Of a stretch of 64,000 bases of DNA, positions 25,011-33,133 are shown piece by piece. The position numbers and the translations under genes are program-made. Numbering within the stretch: the stretch's first letter is position 1; every line of letters begins with the position of its first letter. Source of the DNA: Curvibacter sp. AEP1-3 (GTDB taxonomy: Bacteria > Pseudomonadota > Gammaproteobacteria > Burkholderiales > Burkholderiaceae_C); contig NZ_CP015698.1 in NCBI RefSeq assembly GCF_002163715.1, positions 3,326,201-3,390,200 of the forward strand. The letters run 5' to 3'. The notes under the pieces were generated by a model that was not told the origin of the DNA, did no database searches, and saw only the letters and a program-made list of their open reading frames with translations.

Positions 25011-26159
25011 ATGAGCAAAGCAAGTACCAGACAGTTTGAATTCATCACCAAGTCGGATCCGGATACCGGGGCTCGTGTTACGCGACTGAGCCCGGCGGAT
25101 ACCGCTTGCCATCGCACTTACTTCTACCAAAAGTGCTTTAGCAACGACGGTAACCAGTTGGTGTTCGGTGCCCGGTCCGGTGATGAATGGCATTACCACA
25201 GGCTGGACTTGCAGACCCGTGTCGCGACCCAATTGACCGACCAGCCCGGGGAGAACACCTTCGGTGGCTTTCTGAGCCCGGACGACCGCTTTCTGTATTT
25301 CGTCCGGGCGGAGCGGGAGTTGATCCGTCTGGAGCTCGCCACCTTGAAGGAAGAGTGTGTCTATACCGTGTCCTCTGACTGGGTAGGCTACGGAACCTGG
25401 GTAGCCAATAGTGCCTGTACCAAAATGGTGGGCATCGAGATTCTGGGGACGGATTGGTTTCCGTTAACGGATTGGAAAAAGTTCGGCGAGATGTTCCATT
25501 CCAAGCCGCGTTGCCGCTTGATCCGAATCGACTTGGTGACCGGAGCGCGGACGGTGATTCACGAGGAAAAGCTTTGGCTGGGCCACCCCCAGTACCGCCC
25601 CTTTGATGACAACACAGTGGCTTTTTGCCATGAGGGTACCCATGACCTCATCGATGCACGCATGTGGTTTGTGAACGAAGACGGTAGCAACCTGCGCTGT
25701 GGCAAGGAACACGATCAGGGCGAGAGCTGCACCCATGAATTCTGGGTGCCGGACGGCTCCGCCATGGTGTTCGTGTCTTATTTCAAAGGGCGTTCAGAAC
25801 GTGCCATGTGTTCCCTGGATCCTGTCACCTTGCAAACCCGCGTGCTCACGACCATGCCGCCATGCTCTCATCTGATGAGCAACGCTGATGGCAGTCTCAT
25901 CGTGGGCGACGGCTCCGGGACCCCAGTGGACGTGTCTGACAGTTCATCGCACAAGGTCCAGAACGACCCCTACCTGTATGTGTTCGATCTGAAAGCCGGC
26001 AACATGCGCAAACTGGCGCGGCACGACAGCTCCTGGCGGGTGTACCTCGGCAACCGGCAGGTCACCCACCCCCATCCGTCTTTTACGCCGGATGAGCGGC
26101 AGGTGCTTTTCAGCAGCGATGCGGAAGGCGAGCCGGCGCTCTTCCTCGTGGACCTGTAA
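25011..26159 (+). CDS. ogl: oligogalacturonate lyase
   Basis: 382 residues, full length for the family (PL22). The whole protein follows the enterobacterial Ogl pattern: CHRTYFYQKCFSNDG near the start, DNTFGGFLSPDD-like ENTFGGFLSPDDRFLYF, DWVGYGTWVANSACTKMVGI, DNTVAFCHEGTHDLIDARMW, and GESCTHEFWVPDGS, PCSHLMSNADGS and HPHPSFTPD in the seven-bladed propeller with the His residues that bind manganese. It cleaves short, often unsaturated, oligogalacturonates in the cytoplasm to 5-keto-4-deoxyuronate. No signal peptide, as expected for an enzyme acting after import. This is the strongest evidence that the operon degrades pectin fragments. Confidence 0.93.
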   Translation: MSKASTRQFEFITKSDPDTGARVTRLSPADTACHRTYFYQKCFSNDGNQLVFGARSGDEWHYHRLDLQTRVATQLTDQPGENTFGGFLSPDDRFLYFVRAERELIRLELATLKEECVYTVSSDWVGYGTWVANSACTKMVGIEILGTDWFPLTDWKKFGEMFHSKPRCRLIRIDLVTGARTVIHEEKLWLGHPQYRPFDDNTVAFCHEGTHDLIDARMWFVNEDGSNLRCGKEHDQGESCTHEFWVPDGSAMVFVSYFKGRSERAMCSLDPVTLQTRVLTTMPPCSHLMSNADGSLIVGDGSGTPVDVSDSSSHKVQNDPYLYVFDLKAGNMRKLARHDSSWRVYLGNRQVTHPHPSFTPDERQVLFSSDAEGEPALFLVDL

Positions 26160-26230: not shown

Positions 26231-27208
26231 ATGGAAACCAAATGGCTTGAAGACTTTGTGTCTCTGGCTGAAACCCGGAGTTTCAGCCGATCAGCGCAAC
26301 TGCGTCACGTAACCCAACCCGCGTTTTCGCGGCGCATCCAGTCGTTGGAGGCGTGGGCCGGCACCGATCTGGTGGACCGCAGCAGCTACCCCACCCGGCT
26401 GACCCCGGCGGGCGAGACGTTGTATGACCAGTCGTTGGAGGTGCTTCAAGCCTTGCAAAGCACCCGCGCCATGCTGCGCGGGCATACCACCGCAGCGCAA
26501 GACGTGGTCGAGTTCGCGGTGCCGCACACCTTGGCGTTCACTTTTTTTCCGGCGTGGGTGTCCGAGCTGCGCGAGAAATTCGGGCCGCTCAAAAGCCGCC
26601 TGATTGCGCTCAATGTGCATGACGCGGTGATTCGTCTGGTCGAAGGCAGTTGCGATTTGCTGATTGCCTATCACCATCCCTCGCAGCCCTACCAGCTGGA
26701 TGCGGACCGCTATGAGATGGTCAGTCTGGGTGAGGAAGTGGTGGCACCTTATTCCAAGCCGGATGCGGATGGCAACCCCATGTTCAGCCTTCCCGGCAAA
26801 CTCGGTCAGCCCTTACCCTACCTGGGGTATGCGCCGGGCGCCTATTTGGGCCAGATGGTGGAACTCATCTTGAAGCAAGCCGAAGTACCTGTCCATTTCG
26901 ATCGTGTGTATGAGACCGACATGGCCGAAGGCCTGAAGGCCATGGCGTTAGAAGGCCACGGCGTGGCCTTCCTGCCCCACAGCGCGGTAAAGAAAGACCT
27001 GCGTGCCAAAAAATTGGTGAGTGCCTTGCCGAATCACATGAAGTCGCTGCAGATCACCATGGAAGTACGGGCATACCGCGAACGCCTGGCCGTGCGGGAA
27101 GCAGGCCGCAGCTTGAGCGCGGCGCAGCGGGCGCAGACCCGCACGCCCAAGGGCTCAGCCCAAGCCCTATGGGACTATTTGCATTCCCAGGCGACCTCAA
27201 CGGCATAG
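26231..27208 (+). CDS. LysR family regulator, HypT-like
   Basis: 325 residues. N-terminal LysR helix-turn-helix METKWLEDFVSLAETRSFSR with RHVTQPAFSRRIQSLEAW, followed by a LysR effector domain. The opening METKWLEDFVSLAE and overall pattern match the HypT/QseD group (hypochlorite-responsive in E. coli). The frame closes at 26219-26221, so ATG 26231 is the only practical start; it lacks a Shine-Dalgarno sequence. An out-of-frame ATG at 26205 has GGAGGG at ideal distance. It stands between the pectin operon and the intron-split binding-protein gene; the regulated target is unknown. Confidence 0.88.
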   Translation: METKWLEDFVSLAETRSFSRSAQLRHVTQPAFSRRIQSLEAWAGTDLVDRSSYPTRLTPAGETLYDQSLEVLQALQSTRAMLRGHTTAAQDVVEFAVPHTLAFTFFPAWVSELREKFGPLKSRLIALNVHDAVIRLVEGSCDLLIAYHHPSQPYQLDADRYEMVSLGEEVVAPYSKPDADGNPMFSLPGKLGQPLPYLGYAPGAYLGQMVELILKQAEVPVHFDRVYETDMAEGLKAMALEGHGVAFLPHSAVKKDLRAKKLVSALPNHMKSLQITMEVRAYRERLAVREAGRSLSAAQRAQTRTPKGSAQALWDYLHSQATSTA

Positions 27209-27315: not shown

Positions 27316-27363
27316 ATGACAAATACATACGCTGCTGCACCCCGTCGTGCAGCGTTTTTTTTG
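27316..27363 (+). CDS. amino-acid binding protein gene, exon 1 (16 codons)
   Basis: ATG 27316 with GGAG five bases upstream opens MTNTYAAAPRRAAFFL, the n-region and start of the hydrophobic core of a signal peptide. The frame meets the GTGCG of a group II intron exactly after codon 16. Joining base 27363 directly to base 31168 continues in frame as [11 protein letters not shown], completing the hydrophobic core and leading into a GltI-type binding protein. Exon identity rests on this exact junction. Upstream, 27209-27315 holds the direct repeat TTGCATA (27212 and 27225). Confidence 0.85.
27334..27362 (+). terminator. terminator-like hairpin inside signal-peptide codons
   Basis: GCTGCAC (27334-27340), loop CCCGTC, GTGCAGC (27347-27353), then G and eight Ts. 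It has the form of an intrinsic terminator but lies within codons 7-16 of the binding-protein gene. Group IIC introns insert just downstream of such hairpins, and the first intron begins two bases after the T-run start of GTGCG (27364). Confidence 0.75.
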
Positions 27364-29265
27364 GTGCGTCCGGCAGGACGCTCTCACTAGGAGGTGAAAG
27401 ACCTCTACTCGCCCTGCAAGGGGAAGGGTTAGCCAATGGCAAGGGCTTCGCGGGCGACTGCGAGTCTGAAGGAAGCCGGATGGCAAAGCGCTGGTTCGAC
27501 GAACAGGAAGCGGATATGAGGCGCCACAGGGGGGTAAGGAGTCCGAAATCTCTGAAGCCCAAAACTTGCACGGAACTCTGTGGCGTAGATCCGACGGACA
27601 TAAGCGTGAAAGTGGGTGCGTAATACCCGGAGAGATCTGAGTGTGGTGCCCGTAAGGGCTACCGGCCATCGAAAGGTGACGGGAGGCTCGCTCAGAAGTC
27701 AGCAGAGGGCATAGTAGGTGCAACCCAAGGTGATGAGCCACAAGAGGCGGCACCGAAGGCCCGAACAAGTGGAAACGAGAGTAGGAACGAAGTCACTCGA
27801 TGCCAATCGATGAAGCAGAAGCCCTCGCAAGAGGGGCCCACAGCGAAGGAACCGGACGGAATCTGGGGAGTGCGCACGTGGGTGCTGAGGTGGGTACGGC
27901 GTACGTCGAGCAACCGAAATCGGAGAGAGACCGGCTCATGAGCCGAGTCGTGGATCGCGACAACATGCAGCTCGCTTACAGCCGAGTCATGAAGAATCGC
28001 GGCGCACCCGGCATTGACGGAATGCGCTGTGAAGACCTCAAGACGTGGCTCAAAGTGAACTGGTCGCAAGTAAAGAAGTCGTTACTGGATGGAACCTACC
28101 GCCCCCAAGCGGTACGTCGGGTGGACATACCCAAGCCGCAAGGCGGGGTACGCACGCTCGGAGTGCCCACGGTGGTGGACAGGCTGATTCAGCAGGCGCT
28201 ACATCAGGCGATGCAACCCCTGTTTGAACCTACCTTCTCGCAAAGCAGCTACGGCTTCAGACCGGGGAAAAGTGCGAAGCAGGCGGTAAGCAAAGCGGCA
28301 GAGTACATCCGTGGCGGCAAGCGCTGGGTGGTGGACATGGACCTGGAGAAATTCTTCGACCGTGTCAACCACGACGTGCTGATGGCGCGGGTGGCACGCC
28401 AGGTACAGGACAAAACCGTCCTGAGCCTGATACGCAGGTTTCTGGAGGCCGGGATGATGGCCAACGGGGTAGAGACACCACGGTACGAGGGTACACCGCA
28501 AGGCGGCCCCCTGTCACCACTACTGTCCAACATCCTGTTGACTGATTTAGACCGGGAGCTAGAGGCACGCAAGCTGCTGTTTTGCAGGTATGCGGATGAC
28601 TGCAACATCTACGTGAGCAGTCAGCGGGCGGGCCAACGCATCATGGAGGGCATAAAGAGGTTTCTTGCAAACCGGCTCAAGCTCACTGTGAACGAGACCA
28701 AAAGTGCGGTTGAGCGGCCATGGAAACGCAAGTTTCTGGGATACAGCGTGACAGCACAACGAGCCAGCAAAATCCGAATAGCCAAGGAAAGCACGCAACG
28801 CCTGATGCACGCCGTGCGCACATACTGTGCACAGGGACGGGGCAGGCCACTGCCCCAGACCATCGAAAAGCTAAATCCGGTTTTACGGGGATGGATGAAC
28901 TACTTCAGCCTGACCCAGAGCCACAAGCCCATCGAAGCACTGGATATGTGGGTACGTAGACGGCTACGCGCCCTGATGTGGAGGCAATGGAAAAGGACAA
29001 AGACGCGGGAATCCAAAATGCTCGCACTCGGGCTCGATGCCCAGCGGGCATGGAAGTCCAGCGTCAATGGCCATGGTCCATGGTGGAACGCCGGTGCCAA
29101 ACACCTGCGCCAAGCTCTCCCGACGAAATACTTCACGCAACTCGGGCTGGTCTCGCTGGTGGCAACCCACCAGCACCTCCAGCGTCCTACTTGAACCGCC
29201 GTATGCGGAACCGCACGTACGGTGGTGTGAGAGGGCTGAGGGGGTAACCCCTCACCCTACTCGAT
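27364..29265 (+). mobile_element. group II intron, copy 1 (1902 bp)
   Basis: Begins with the group II 5' consensus GTGCG and ends in CGAT (the usual AY end). The first 436 bases are the structured RNA of domains I-III; the reverse transcriptase lies in domain IV; domain V-like GAACCGCCGTATGCGG with CCGCACGTACGGTGG (29191-29228) and a domain VI hairpin (29232-29257) follow. Absence of an endonuclease domain in the protein and the upstream terminator-like hairpin point to class C. Identical in sequence to the copy that follows directly. The ends were fixed by comparing the two copies and by the restored reading frame of the host gene. Confidence 0.92.
27800..29194 (+). CDS. group II intron reverse transcriptase/maturase, copy 1
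   Basis: 464 residues from ATG 27800; a shorter start at 27938 (MSRVVDRDN) with GGAGAG upstream is also possible and would better match class C proteins of about 420 residues. Seen: RT segments RNRGAPGIDGM-like KNRGAPGIDGM, QSSYGFRPGKSA, the PQGGPLSP motif (233-240), the catalytic YADD (264-267) and the maturase X-domain region with LNPVLRGWMNYF. No HNH endonuclease follows. It assists splicing and copies the intron RNA into DNA target sites. Identical to copy 2. Confidence 0.93.
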   Translation: MPIDEAEALARGAHSEGTGRNLGSAHVGAEVGTAYVEQPKSERDRLMSRVVDRDNMQLAYSRVMKNRGAPGIDGMRCEDLKTWLKVNWSQVKKSLLDGTYRPQAVRRVDIPKPQGGVRTLGVPTVVDRLIQQALHQAMQPLFEPTFSQSSYGFRPGKSAKQAVSKAAEYIRGGKRWVVDMDLEKFFDRVNHDVLMARVARQVQDKTVLSLIRRFLEAGMMANGVETPRYEGTPQGGPLSPLLSNILLTDLDRELEARKLLFCRYADDCNIYVSSQRAGQRIMEGIKRFLANRLKLTVNETKSAVERPWKRKFLGYSVTAQRASKIRIAKESTQRLMHAVRTYCAQGRGRPLPQTIEKLNPVLRGWMNYFSLTQSHKPIEALDMWVRRRLRALMWRQWKRTKTRESKMLALGLDAQRAWKSSVNGHGPWWNAGAKHLRQALPTKYFTQLGLVSLVATHQHLQRPT

Positions 29266-31167
29266 GTGCGTCCGGCAGGACGCTCTCACTAGGAGGTGAA
29301 AGACCTCTACTCGCCCTGCAAGGGGAAGGGTTAGCCAATGGCAAGGGCTTCGCGGGCGACTGCGAGTCTGAAGGAAGCCGGATGGCAAAGCGCTGGTTCG
29401 ACGAACAGGAAGCGGATATGAGGCGCCACAGGGGGGTAAGGAGTCCGAAATCTCTGAAGCCCAAAACTTGCACGGAACTCTGTGGCGTAGATCCGACGGA
29501 CATAAGCGTGAAAGTGGGTGCGTAATACCCGGAGAGATCTGAGTGTGGTGCCCGTAAGGGCTACCGGCCATCGAAAGGTGACGGGAGGCTCGCTCAGAAG
29601 TCAGCAGAGGGCATAGTAGGTGCAACCCAAGGTGATGAGCCACAAGAGGCGGCACCGAAGGCCCGAACAAGTGGAAACGAGAGTAGGAACGAAGTCACTC
29701 GATGCCAATCGATGAAGCAGAAGCCCTCGCAAGAGGGGCCCACAGCGAAGGAACCGGACGGAATCTGGGGAGTGCGCACGTGGGTGCTGAGGTGGGTACG
29801 GCGTACGTCGAGCAACCGAAATCGGAGAGAGACCGGCTCATGAGCCGAGTCGTGGATCGCGACAACATGCAGCTCGCTTACAGCCGAGTCATGAAGAATC
29901 GCGGCGCACCCGGCATTGACGGAATGCGCTGTGAAGACCTCAAGACGTGGCTCAAAGTGAACTGGTCGCAAGTAAAGAAGTCGTTACTGGATGGAACCTA
30001 CCGCCCCCAAGCGGTACGTCGGGTGGACATACCCAAGCCGCAAGGCGGGGTACGCACGCTCGGAGTGCCCACGGTGGTGGACAGGCTGATTCAGCAGGCG
30101 CTACATCAGGCGATGCAACCCCTGTTTGAACCTACCTTCTCGCAAAGCAGCTACGGCTTCAGACCGGGGAAAAGTGCGAAGCAGGCGGTAAGCAAAGCGG
30201 CAGAGTACATCCGTGGCGGCAAGCGCTGGGTGGTGGACATGGACCTGGAGAAATTCTTCGACCGTGTCAACCACGACGTGCTGATGGCGCGGGTGGCACG
30301 CCAGGTACAGGACAAAACCGTCCTGAGCCTGATACGCAGGTTTCTGGAGGCCGGGATGATGGCCAACGGGGTAGAGACACCACGGTACGAGGGTACACCG
30401 CAAGGCGGCCCCCTGTCACCACTACTGTCCAACATCCTGTTGACTGATTTAGACCGGGAGCTAGAGGCACGCAAGCTGCTGTTTTGCAGGTATGCGGATG
30501 ACTGCAACATCTACGTGAGCAGTCAGCGGGCGGGCCAACGCATCATGGAGGGCATAAAGAGGTTTCTTGCAAACCGGCTCAAGCTCACTGTGAACGAGAC
30601 CAAAAGTGCGGTTGAGCGGCCATGGAAACGCAAGTTTCTGGGATACAGCGTGACAGCACAACGAGCCAGCAAAATCCGAATAGCCAAGGAAAGCACGCAA
30701 CGCCTGATGCACGCCGTGCGCACATACTGTGCACAGGGACGGGGCAGGCCACTGCCCCAGACCATCGAAAAGCTAAATCCGGTTTTACGGGGATGGATGA
30801 ACTACTTCAGCCTGACCCAGAGCCACAAGCCCATCGAAGCACTGGATATGTGGGTACGTAGACGGCTACGCGCCCTGATGTGGAGGCAATGGAAAAGGAC
30901 AAAGACGCGGGAATCCAAAATGCTCGCACTCGGGCTCGATGCCCAGCGGGCATGGAAGTCCAGCGTCAATGGCCATGGTCCATGGTGGAACGCCGGTGCC
31001 AAACACCTGCGCCAAGCTCTCCCGACGAAATACTTCACGCAACTCGGGCTGGTCTCGCTGGTGGCAACCCACCAGCACCTCCAGCGTCCTACTTGAACCG
31101 CCGTATGCGGAACCGCACGTACGGTGGTGTGAGAGGGCTGAGGGGGTAACCCCTCACCCTACTCGAT
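29266..31167 (+). mobile_element. group II intron, copy 2 (1902 bp)
   Basis: Starts at GTGCG immediately after the CGAT end of copy 1, without any spacer, and ends in CGAT at 31167 before CTTGGC of exon 2. The two units match throughout where compared, including every open frame in both strands, so duplication is recent or maintained by recombination. Its own 5' flank is the 3' end of copy 1 and not the T-rich exon, which bears on how it can splice. 29266-29701 is structured RNA with no gene. Confidence 0.92.
29702..31096 (+). CDS. group II intron reverse transcriptase/maturase, copy 2
   Basis: Identical 464-residue protein to that of copy 1, with intact YADD and maturase domain, so both introns encode an apparently functional protein. 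No frameshift or stop distinguishes the copies. Confidence 0.93.
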   Translation: MPIDEAEALARGAHSEGTGRNLGSAHVGAEVGTAYVEQPKSERDRLMSRVVDRDNMQLAYSRVMKNRGAPGIDGMRCEDLKTWLKVNWSQVKKSLLDGTYRPQAVRRVDIPKPQGGVRTLGVPTVVDRLIQQALHQAMQPLFEPTFSQSSYGFRPGKSAKQAVSKAAEYIRGGKRWVVDMDLEKFFDRVNHDVLMARVARQVQDKTVLSLIRRFLEAGMMANGVETPRYEGTPQGGPLSPLLSNILLTDLDRELEARKLLFCRYADDCNIYVSSQRAGQRIMEGIKRFLANRLKLTVNETKSAVERPWKRKFLGYSVTAQRASKIRIAKESTQRLMHAVRTYCAQGRGRPLPQTIEKLNPVLRGWMNYFSLTQSHKPIEALDMWVRRRLRALMWRQWKRTKTRESKMLALGLDAQRAWKSSVNGHGPWWNAGAKHLRQALPTKYFTQLGLVSLVATHQHLQRPT

Positions 31168-32034
31168 CTTGGCAGCTTGCTTGCATTTGCGGGGCACAGC
31201 CCGGCCGCTGCGACTGGTGTTCTGGAGCGTGTCAGTAGTGGCGGCAAATTGGTGATTGCGCACCGCGAGTCGTCCATTCCGTTTTCTTATGTTGATGCTG
31301 ACAAGAAGCCCGTGGGCTATGCCGTAGAGCTGTGCCTGAAGTTGGCAGAGGCGGTGCGCAAGAAGACCGGTGCCAAGAACATGCAGGTGGAGTTCTTGCA
31401 GGTCACACCTGCCAACCGCATCGCCATGGTGGCCGAAGGCAAGGCAGACCTCGAATGCGGATCGACCACCAACAACGCCGAGCGGCGCCAGAAAGTAGCC
31501 TTCACCATCCCTCACTTCATTACCGGGGCCCGCATGTTGGTGCGGGCTGACAGCAAGATAGAACGGATTGAAGACTTGGAAGGCAAAAAGCTGGTGTCCA
31601 CCAAAGGTACGACCCCGCTGAAGGCTGCGGAGCAGGCCAACCGTGAGCGGTTGTTGCGCATCACCATCCTCGAAGCCCCCGACCATGCGAAAGCGGTCGA
31701 CATGGTCGAGAAAAGTGAGGCGGATGCTTTTGTGATGGATGACGTGCTTTTGTATGGCTTGGCGTCTAACCTGCCCAAGCCTGAATCGTTGCGCGTGGTC
31801 GGCAAGTTCCTGACCACAGAACCCTTGGCCATCATGCTGTCCAAAGACGATCCCGAGTTCAAGAAGCTGATCGACGAAGAAATGCGTCGCCTGATCGTCA
31901 GCAAAGAGATTCAGCCGATCTACGACAAATGGTTTCTGAAGCCCATTCCGCCGAACGACAAAGCGCTGAATCTGCCCGTGAGCTACCTGCTGAGGGACTT
32001 CTGGAAATACCCCAGCGACTTCGTGCCTTTTTAA
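31168..32034 (+). CDS. amino-acid ABC transporter binding protein, exon 2 (GltI-like)
   Basis: 288 codons, giving 304 residues when joined to exon 1. After the signal-peptide remainder ([15 protein letters not shown]), the mature protein begins [20 protein letters not shown] and contains [31 protein letters not shown] and [16 protein letters not shown], the pattern of GltI/DEBP glutamate-aspartate receptors. Without splicing, translation could start only at internal codons lacking the signal-peptide n-region, so the protein would not be exported. No permease or ATPase genes lie nearby. It is either rescued by intron splicing or functionally dead; the frame itself is intact. Confidence 0.88.
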
Positions 32035-32086
32035 GCGACTCCGCTCGCATAGCGGGGTGCGCTGCGGTTTTGGGACAATAGGGGCC

Positions 32087-33133
32087 ATGACTTCCACAGC
32101 CACCCCCCAGACACTGACCATCACCCGCCCGGACGACTGGCACTTGCACGTGCGCGACGGCGCTGCCCTCAATACCGTGGTGCCGCACACCGCAGCCCAG
32201 TTCGGCCGCGCCATCATCATGCCCAACCTCAAGCCGCCGGTGACCACCGCCGAGCAGGCGTTGGCTTACAAGGCCCGCATTCAGGCCGCGGTACCGGCGG
32301 GTGTGGAGTTTGAGCCTTTGATGACGCTCTACCTCACCGACAACCTGCCCGCTGATGAAATTGCGCGTGCCAAGGACGCCGGTGTAGTGGCCGCGAAGCT
32401 CTACCCCGCAGGGGCGACCACCAACAGCGATGCCGGCGTCACTGACATCCGCAAGACATATAAGACGCTGGAAGCCATGCAGAAAGCCGGCTTGCTCTTG
32501 TTGGTGCATGGCGAGGTCACTAGCAGCGACATTGATTTGTTTGACCGTGAAGCGGTGTTCATCGACACCCAGCTCATTCCCTTGCGCCGGGATTTCCCCG
32601 AGCTGAAGATCGTGTTCGAGCACATCACCACGCTGGAAGCTGCTCAGTACGTGGCCGCTGCAGACCGCTTTACTGCTGCGAGCATCACTGCCCACCACCT
32701 GCTCTACAACCGTAATGCCATCTTCACCGGCGGCATCCGGCCCCACTACTACTGCCTGCCGGTTTTGAAGCGTGAGACGCACCGCAAGGCCCTGGTGCAA
32801 GCAGCGACCGGCGGCTCCCCCAAGTTCTTCCTGGGTACCGACAGCGCGCCACACCCCGCCCACCTCAAGGAGCATGCCTCGGGCTGCGCTGGCTGCTACA
32901 CCGCCCACGCTGCCATGGAGCTGTACGCCCAGGCATTTGACGCTGCAGGTGCCCTCGACAAGCTGGAGGGCTTTGCCAGTTTCCACGGTGCGGACTTCTA
33001 TGGTTTGCCACGCAACCGGGGCACCATCACCTTGATGCGCGAAAGCTGGACCCCACCCGAGAGCTACGCCTTCGGCGAAACCACGCTCAAACCCCTGGCC
33101 GCGGGCGAAGCACTGCAGTGGCGTTTGGTCTAG
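32087..33133 (+). CDS. pyrC: dihydroorotase
   Basis: 348 residues, class II (E. coli PyrC type). Start ATG 32087; the frame is open upstream to 32057 without a good site. Metal-binding HLH in [10 protein letters not shown] near the N-terminus, the carboxylated lysine in [15 protein letters not shown], and the two later His in VHGEVT and EHITT are visible, with DSAPH as the catalytic Asp region. It converts carbamoyl aspartate to dihydroorotate in pyrimidine synthesis. Its end overlaps the next gene by 16 bases. Confidence 0.95.

Follow-up and report, generated by a model that had tools for sequence, protein, structure and literature searches.

A head-to-tail pair of identical group IIC introns behind a terminator mimic in the signal-peptide codons of a Curvibacter solute-binding protein gene

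Why does a group II intron of class C, a class usually located outside genes (PMC8919778), sit twice within the coding sequence of a bacterial receptor gene, and what becomes of that gene? The question is raised by a stretch of 64,000 nucleotides from Curvibacter sp. AEP1-3 (contig NZ_CP015698.1, positions 3,326,201 to 3,390,200; referred to as the window), in which two 1902-bp introns interrupt the signal-peptide codons of a solute-binding protein gene. The interruption was noticed in an initial annotation, whose statement on the usual location of class C introns agrees with the paper cited above. The best explanation, which is considered likely, is a recent spread of a group IIC intron, its insertion at a terminator mimic in the codons, and the addition of a second copy at the same 5' exon.

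The intron pair and its target

Both copies agree in all bases, letter for letter, and abut without a spacer (Table 1), as the initial annotation had claimed. The Rfam D1-D4 and D5/D6 elements (RF02001, RF01998 and RF00029) were found in both with equal scores above the gathering thresholds, and the reverse transcriptase (RT) of each copy, likewise described as intact, is encoded by a 464-aa open frame. Joining base 27363 to 31168 yields 304 codons plus a stop codon, with no internal stop. The insertion point thereby lies after codon 16 in phase 0, within the signal peptide, exactly where it had been placed before, and the ligated exon junction predicted from the joined sequence is TTTTTTTTG followed by CTTGGC.

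The RT contains the domains PF00078 (RVT_1) and PF08388 (GIIM) only; an HNH endonuclease domain was not found. Its nearest solved structure is the GsI-IIC RT (PDB 6ar1; 1.1e-143, 482.5 bits, residues 46-459). The maturase of PDB 7uim, which we take to be an E. rectale-type IIC maturase, matches with 2.7e-103 and 349.3 bits, while LtrA, a IIA protein, is far behind the IIC enzymes (1.6e-45, 158.9 bits). A paper on a group IIC structure (PMC10190682) presumably deals with 7uim and E. rectale. The assignment of the RT to the IIC lineage was made by match scores to solved structures and not by a tree. Since the RT is nearest to GsI-IIC RT, an HNH domain is lacking and the copies lie behind terminator hairpins, the window intron is classified from these features as group IIC (class C), in line with the initial annotation. 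In the fold of domain VI, a single A is bulged seven bases from the intron 3' end, presumably the branch point. Close relatives of the RT are rare, as only four of 350 genomes of the family, the own genome counted, hold one at E ≤ 1e-150. Related introns in three genomes (G243, G442 and G276) and on Pseudomonas plasmids start with GTGCGYCCGGCAGGRCGC and end with CTACTCGAT (CTACTCAAT in G442), and they too sit after a hairpin, a T-run and a G. The related intron in G442 (L148:1092-4294, 78%) is broken near position 1744 by approximately 1.3 kb of other DNA, and its RT match contains one stop codon. Another group II maturase domain, unlike the 11 copies described below, is encoded in a 573-aa frame of the Curvibacter genome (G000:C1:2958679-2958915, L225).

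Class IIC introns insert after intrinsic terminators (PMC3522654, PMC8919778, PMC4424553; work of Robart et al. 2007), and their target recognition involves a DNA stem-loop, a short T-rich intron-binding site 1 (IBS1) and a single IBS3 base (PMC10190682). In the window, the codons for Ala-Ala-Pro-Arg-Arg-Ala-Ala-Phe-Phe-Leu spell GCTGCAC-CCCGTC-GTGCAGC, a G, T8 and a further G, after which the intron begins. This hairpin folds at -12.7 kcal/mol as RNA (-10.1 to -14.4 at five other sites of the intron in this genome and -14.9 at the sixth, designated L015) and at -7.4 as DNA (z -3.41). A terminator scan selects the mimic, yet the region in total gave 3 sites compared to 5.1 in shuffles. Stem, T-run and G are present at all seven places occupied by the intron, those of the window being a mimic in codons. 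No sense-strand gene was seen running through the six other sites; the lone sense frame crossing one of them, at L015, reads through the T-run. Judged by their sequence, the signal-peptide codons mimic the normal IIC target, and the intron was apparently inserted between codons 16 and 17 because they form a hairpin followed by T8 and G. The intron ribonucleoprotein, which seeks a DNA hairpin and then T-rich bases ending in G, as in intrinsic terminators, would have inserted here in the sense direction. A terminator-seeking intron can hence enter a coding gene, and terminator-like codons appear sufficient.

This reason for the site was missed by the initial annotation, which had identity, class and site right and stressed the exact in-frame position instead. 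The latter adds no weight. A precise insertion into an intact gene removes no target bases, relatives hold the uninterrupted gene, and phase 0 is met by chance one time in three; the in-frame position is therefore no evidence of splicing.

The uninterrupted gene was found in three close relatives (L066, L037 and L067, with 97.9, 95.0 and 91.4% identity across the 1.1 kb of joined sequence); among relatives that have a named record, the closest belong mostly to Rhodoferax. At these empty sites, L066 and L037 keep the stem and T8, and L067 the stem and T6; two of the seven stem pairs in L037 are G-T. Counting G-T, all seven pairs of the stem at 27334-27353 are kept in the window, L066, L037, L067 and L038, two pairs being changed on both sides. 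This pattern might suggest that the signal-peptide codons hold a conserved attenuator. For a test of this idea, the gene start was found in 18 of 45 sequences, five of which are distinct and carry the stem (L100 repeats L038), the other 12 having different N-termini. When the same protein was written in random synonymous codons, seven of seven pairs arose in 11-14% of the draws per sequence.

A candidate for the exon-binding site 1 (EBS1) of the intron, CGAA, pairs at four of four positions with TTCG (four places) and with TTTG (the window and the outer site of L015, one pair being G-T), and at three of four with TACG (L014). With CGAT, the bases at the inner junction of a pair, it matches at none of four. 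In eight related introns, the bases homologous to the candidate pair at three or four of four positions with their own sites. Folded alone, the candidate lies partly within a tetraloop (GAAA) on a stem of 4 bp, so that it may be wrong.

Doubling in the genome and on Pseudomonas plasmids

By exact match, 11 full copies of the intron, all identical, were detected at seven places in the genome, with two partial pieces beside one of the copies. Four places are exact head-to-tail pairs, two hold a single copy, and L015 holds one full copy between fragments of another. The tandem state, which the initial annotation noted at the receptor gene, is not special to it, as three of the six other places share it. 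The identity of the 11 copies implies, as far as sequence can tell, a recent insertion and a burst of mobility. Each window copy is complete and uninterrupted, and the pair is not an intron nested in an intron as in a twintron; L015, with its unclear structure, is an exception in this respect.

According to the proposed explanation, the hairpin and IBS1 would stay intact ahead of a resident copy and the site would remain a target, so that the same 5' exon could receive a second identical copy, through a subsequent insertion or within a single coupled event of reverse transcription. The expectation from independent insertions was estimated with a scan for target-like sites, which had self-set and loose criteria and recovered all six sites given to it (L015 excluded). 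From ten 20-kb stretches plus the window, 260,196 bases in total, it returned 31 sites, corresponding to about 520 in the genome. When 11 insertions were distributed uniformly in 100,000 trials, at least four doubled places were obtained in none of the trials with 520 targets, in 3 with 260 and in 7 with 130. Unless the number of real targets is very small, independent accidents do not account for the pairs, which would point to a preference for occupied sites, to one coupled event or to the assembly.

A pair would form in one event if the RT, having reached the 5' end of an intron RNA, continued on the 3' end of a second one, or travelled around a circular intron RNA, so that a dimer was produced. 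The exact junctions and the excess of doubled places over independent uniform insertion fit this route, and the GsI-IIC RT, the closest solved enzyme, begins cDNA synthesis by switching to an RNA 3' end, which it does efficiently (PMC11460701). Head-to-tail intron circles are known as RNA for Ll.LtrB (PMC6248898), and their reverse transcription may be a further route to identical pairs. The excess would, however, also be explained if the intron preferred sites that are transcribed or have been opened before. One-event formation is regarded as rather unlikely; a pair found independently on a Pseudomonas plasmid speaks against it.

A query with the junction region was covered to at least 80% in one of 51 matching plasmid records, that of Pseudomonas sp. 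HD6515 (NZ_CP079828.1, L212:5535-9331). Two different introns, A and B, lie here head to tail behind one terminator. They are 68% identical to each other (1.2 kb), B is 70% identical to the window intron, and both are filed as putative IIC introns by their similarity to the latter and by their terminator sites. The same stretch is present at 99.9% in pKF715B (NZ_AP015031.1, L213), which holds B, the downstream intron, alone. The single site reads T8-CG followed by B and the paired site T8-GG followed by A and B, with B missing its first G. The simplest reading of these sequences is that A was added between the terminator and a resident B, i.e. sequential insertion; a loss of A from pKF715B with exact restoration of the site is less likely. 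Different introns, one of them alone on the sister plasmid, and a missing base of the downstream intron speak against a one-event dimer at this place.

It could also be asked whether the Curvibacter pairs are real, since the doubling rests on the deposited assembly. A single true copy set twice by the assembler or a gap filler would produce the same record; identical copies are indistinguishable, every doubled place holds exactly two copies and never three, and L015 looks like a patched repeat. This place (G000:C1:2456164-2458550, minus strand) consists of a terminator with 19 T, intron positions 1-350, an N, TTTTTCG, a full intron, a C and intron positions 1777-1902, and is probably an assembly gap filled with the consensus repeat and mis-assembled. 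Unlike L015, the four exact pairs join at the intron ends without remnants. The small contig and ten 20-kb samples of the genome showed no N, and a comparable pair occurs on the Pseudomonas plasmid, where the two introns differ and a repeat set twice is impossible. An assembly product is accordingly judged unlikely, and the pairs are with good confidence real. A further stretch (L166) ends in a 5000-base N block near rRNA genes, which was taken for a mask. Two other gauges of the assembly were discarded: rRNA copy number, as two of six genomes had no 16S match at all and were probably masked, and transposases, as the 20 PF00665 matches all differed in score and PF01609 matched once, leaving no identical repeat for comparison.

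Several observations weigh against the proposed explanation. Besides the patched structure of L015, the candidate EBS1 is weakly supported, topping its scan by a narrow margin. If only 30 targets existed, doubling by chance would occur in 1276 of 100,000 trials (1.3%), and with 20 targets in 4534 (4.5%). An array of three copies was not seen at any of the seven places. At each of these places the site is followed by C or T, while re-insertion before a resident copy would meet a G; a G at this position is not forbidden, because it occurs at two of ten sites in relatives. Three sites are crossed by open frames on the antisense strand, L014 by one of 383 aa, L017+ by one of 543 aa and L018 by one of 91 aa. 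No Pfam match was obtained for the two long ones, which are for this reason taken for chance frames of GC-rich DNA. Finally, an intron end was found ahead of none of the 24 matched intron-like starts in 12 other genomes with matches (399 searched) and of none of ten in six other genomes with matches (377 searched); the junction pattern demands a T at the eighth base ahead of the intron, part of the matched sequences fail to align as introns, and draft assemblies are prone to be interrupted at repeats of this kind. A junction scan of viral contigs gave no match.

Splicing and the receptor gene

The interrupted gene encodes a family-3 solute-binding protein (PF00497). Its designation as a GltI-like receptor holds in so far as the glutamate/aspartate receptor PRK10797 is the top NCBIfam model, whereas the match (codons 17-304 as query) reaches 226.8 bits, below the cut-off of 375 for this model. 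Read without splicing from the ATG, the frame ends after 24 codons, yielding a 24-residue peptide, and an in-frame TAA lies 18 bases ahead of exon 2. Both stops rule out a receptor with its signal made from unspliced or re-initiated translation. A truncated protein might arise from a start within exon 2 (TTG 31177) and would miss most of the signal.

Whether the joined frame is used depends on splicing. Class IIC introns locate the 5' splice site through a stem-loop of the 5' exon (PMC7161350), and such a stem-loop is present in the sequence of the window transcript. Should the candidate EBS1 be right, the 5' splice site of copy 1 would be the sole usable one, since no matching IBS1 precedes the inner copy in the transcript, and removal would be stepwise or composite. 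Copy 1 might leave first and copy 2 thereafter, or both as one unit of 3.8 kb; either route would restore the signal peptide.

Selection on the gene was compared among four sequences. The dN/dS ratio of 0.06 to 0.11 by pair indicates purifying selection on the receptor gene. On the window branch, 11 synonymous and three amino-acid changes but no stop were counted, on the L066 branch two of each. The insertion is too young for these branch changes or the intact 3' frame to show that the gene is still working; because it is recent, with all 11 copies identical, the intact downstream frame is no proof of a working gene.

Two outcomes for the receptor are thus to be weighed. In the first, the pair would be a plain insertional knock-out that blocks a dispensable gene, with little or no spliced mRNA and a frame left intact by the youth of the insertion. 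The recent burst of 11 identical copies, the stops after 24 codons and just ahead of exon 2, and the absence of the intron from the closest relatives are in line with it. The ribozyme elements and the RT look intact, however, and the 5' exon hairpin is of the kind used by class IIC introns to find the 5' splice site (PMC7161350); the window lineage has also accumulated its changes without a stop, although these may predate the insertion. A knock-out is considered well possible, short of probable. In the second, the receptor would be expressed routinely from spliced mRNA, with splicing as a possible control point of its export, as the initial annotation had proposed. Frame, phase and candidate splice-site pairing fit this outcome, as does the purifying selection across the four sequences. 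Against it stand the recency of the insertion, which leaves selection unable to testify, and the doubling of the same intron at three places where no sense gene was seen crossing. Export dependent on splicing is held to be rather unlikely. A wider reading of the pairs is also unlikely. It would have IIC introns regularly make doubles, an occupied site preferentially receiving a seamless second copy by template switching or local re-insertion, and the 3.8-kb double splicing cleanly, with the export signal assembled only after the action of two ribozymes or one composite.

Genes for a regulator and a dihydroorotase flank the receptor gene (Table 1). An oligogalacturonate lyase with a strong PF14583 match (611 bits) is encoded at 25011-26159 by the second gene ahead of the receptor gene and may indicate a pectin-degradation neighbourhood.

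Table 1. Features of the intron pair, the interrupted gene and its neighbours (positions within the window).
Feature	Position	Strand	Evidence
LysR-family regulator gene, upstream	26231..27208	+	PF00126, PF03466
Solute-binding protein gene, 5' exon: codons 1-16 (signal-peptide n-region, start of h-region)	27316..27363	+	sequence; joined frame; same N-terminus with few changes in L066, L037 and L067
Terminator mimic formed by codons: stem of 7 bp (GCTGCAC/GTGCAGC) and loop of 6 nt (27334-27353), a G and T8 (27355-27362); intron inserted after G 27363	27334..27362	+	folds, terminator scan
Group IIC intron, copy 1	27364..29265	+	identical to copy 2 and 9 further genome copies; RF02001 27448-27620, RF01998 27659-27761, RF00029 29194-29265
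Candidate EBS1 CGAA, copy 1, near end of domain I	27670..27673	+	best column of unbiased scan, narrow margin; 4/4 with TTTG including one G-T
RT/maturase of copy 1, 464-aa open frame (a later ATG may be the true start)	27800..29194	+	PF00078, PF08388, no HNH; TIGR04416; GsI-IIC RT 1.1e-143
Group IIC intron, copy 2, abutting copy 1 head to tail	29266..31167	+	Rfam elements; letter identity
RT/maturase of copy 2, identical	29702..31096	+	open frame; letter identity of copies
Domains V and VI of copy 2	31096..31167	+	RF00029; fold -44.5 kcal/mol, z -6.18
Solute-binding protein gene, 3' exon: codons 17-304 with stop	31168..32034	+	PF00497 8.6e-30; NCBIfam PRK10797 3.2e-67, 226.8 bits vs cut-off 375
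pyrC-like dihydroorotase gene, downstream	32057..33133	+	TIGR00856

Comparison with known systems

The class of the intron is known; what still surprises is how many exact doubles a single genome holds. The exact pairs, together with the comparison of the Pseudomonas sister plasmids, which hints at an order of insertion, offer a natural system for the re-use of occupied sites and the splicing of double introns.

The RT is homologous over nearly its whole length to those of GsI-IIC (6ar1) and 7uim, and its target is presumably read in like manner, by a DNA stem-loop together with one IBS3 base and a short T-rich IBS1. The hosts differ.

With the twintrons and nested arrays of T. elongatus and Methanosarcina acetivorans (PMC2882425, PMC4424553), the pair has homing to intron-held places in common. 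A twintron is an intron within an intron, whereas in the window one copy directly follows the other after a single 5' exon. In another collection, 21 of 513 sequences were set aside as twintrons, along with further ones that hold several intron copies (PMC4028801). Twintrons, nested arrays and multi-copy sequences are what the accessible literature on tandem or head-to-tail group II introns describes, most subscription papers lying outside its reach; a class IIC end-to-end pair was not found in it.

Group II introns in coding genes are represented by the surface-layer gene of C. tetani (PMC3919590) and by phage genes (PMC12350094), and in each of these, as in the window, the frame is restorable by splicing. 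The window intron belongs to class IIC and its target is a terminator mimic.

The closest parallel is provided by the bacterial class C introns located after terminators. The type of RT, the lack of an endonuclease domain, the target of hairpin and T-run and the spreading copies are shared with these elements. The Curvibacter intron differs from them in that its window copy entered a terminator mimic made of codons, and in that four of its places in the genome are doubled.

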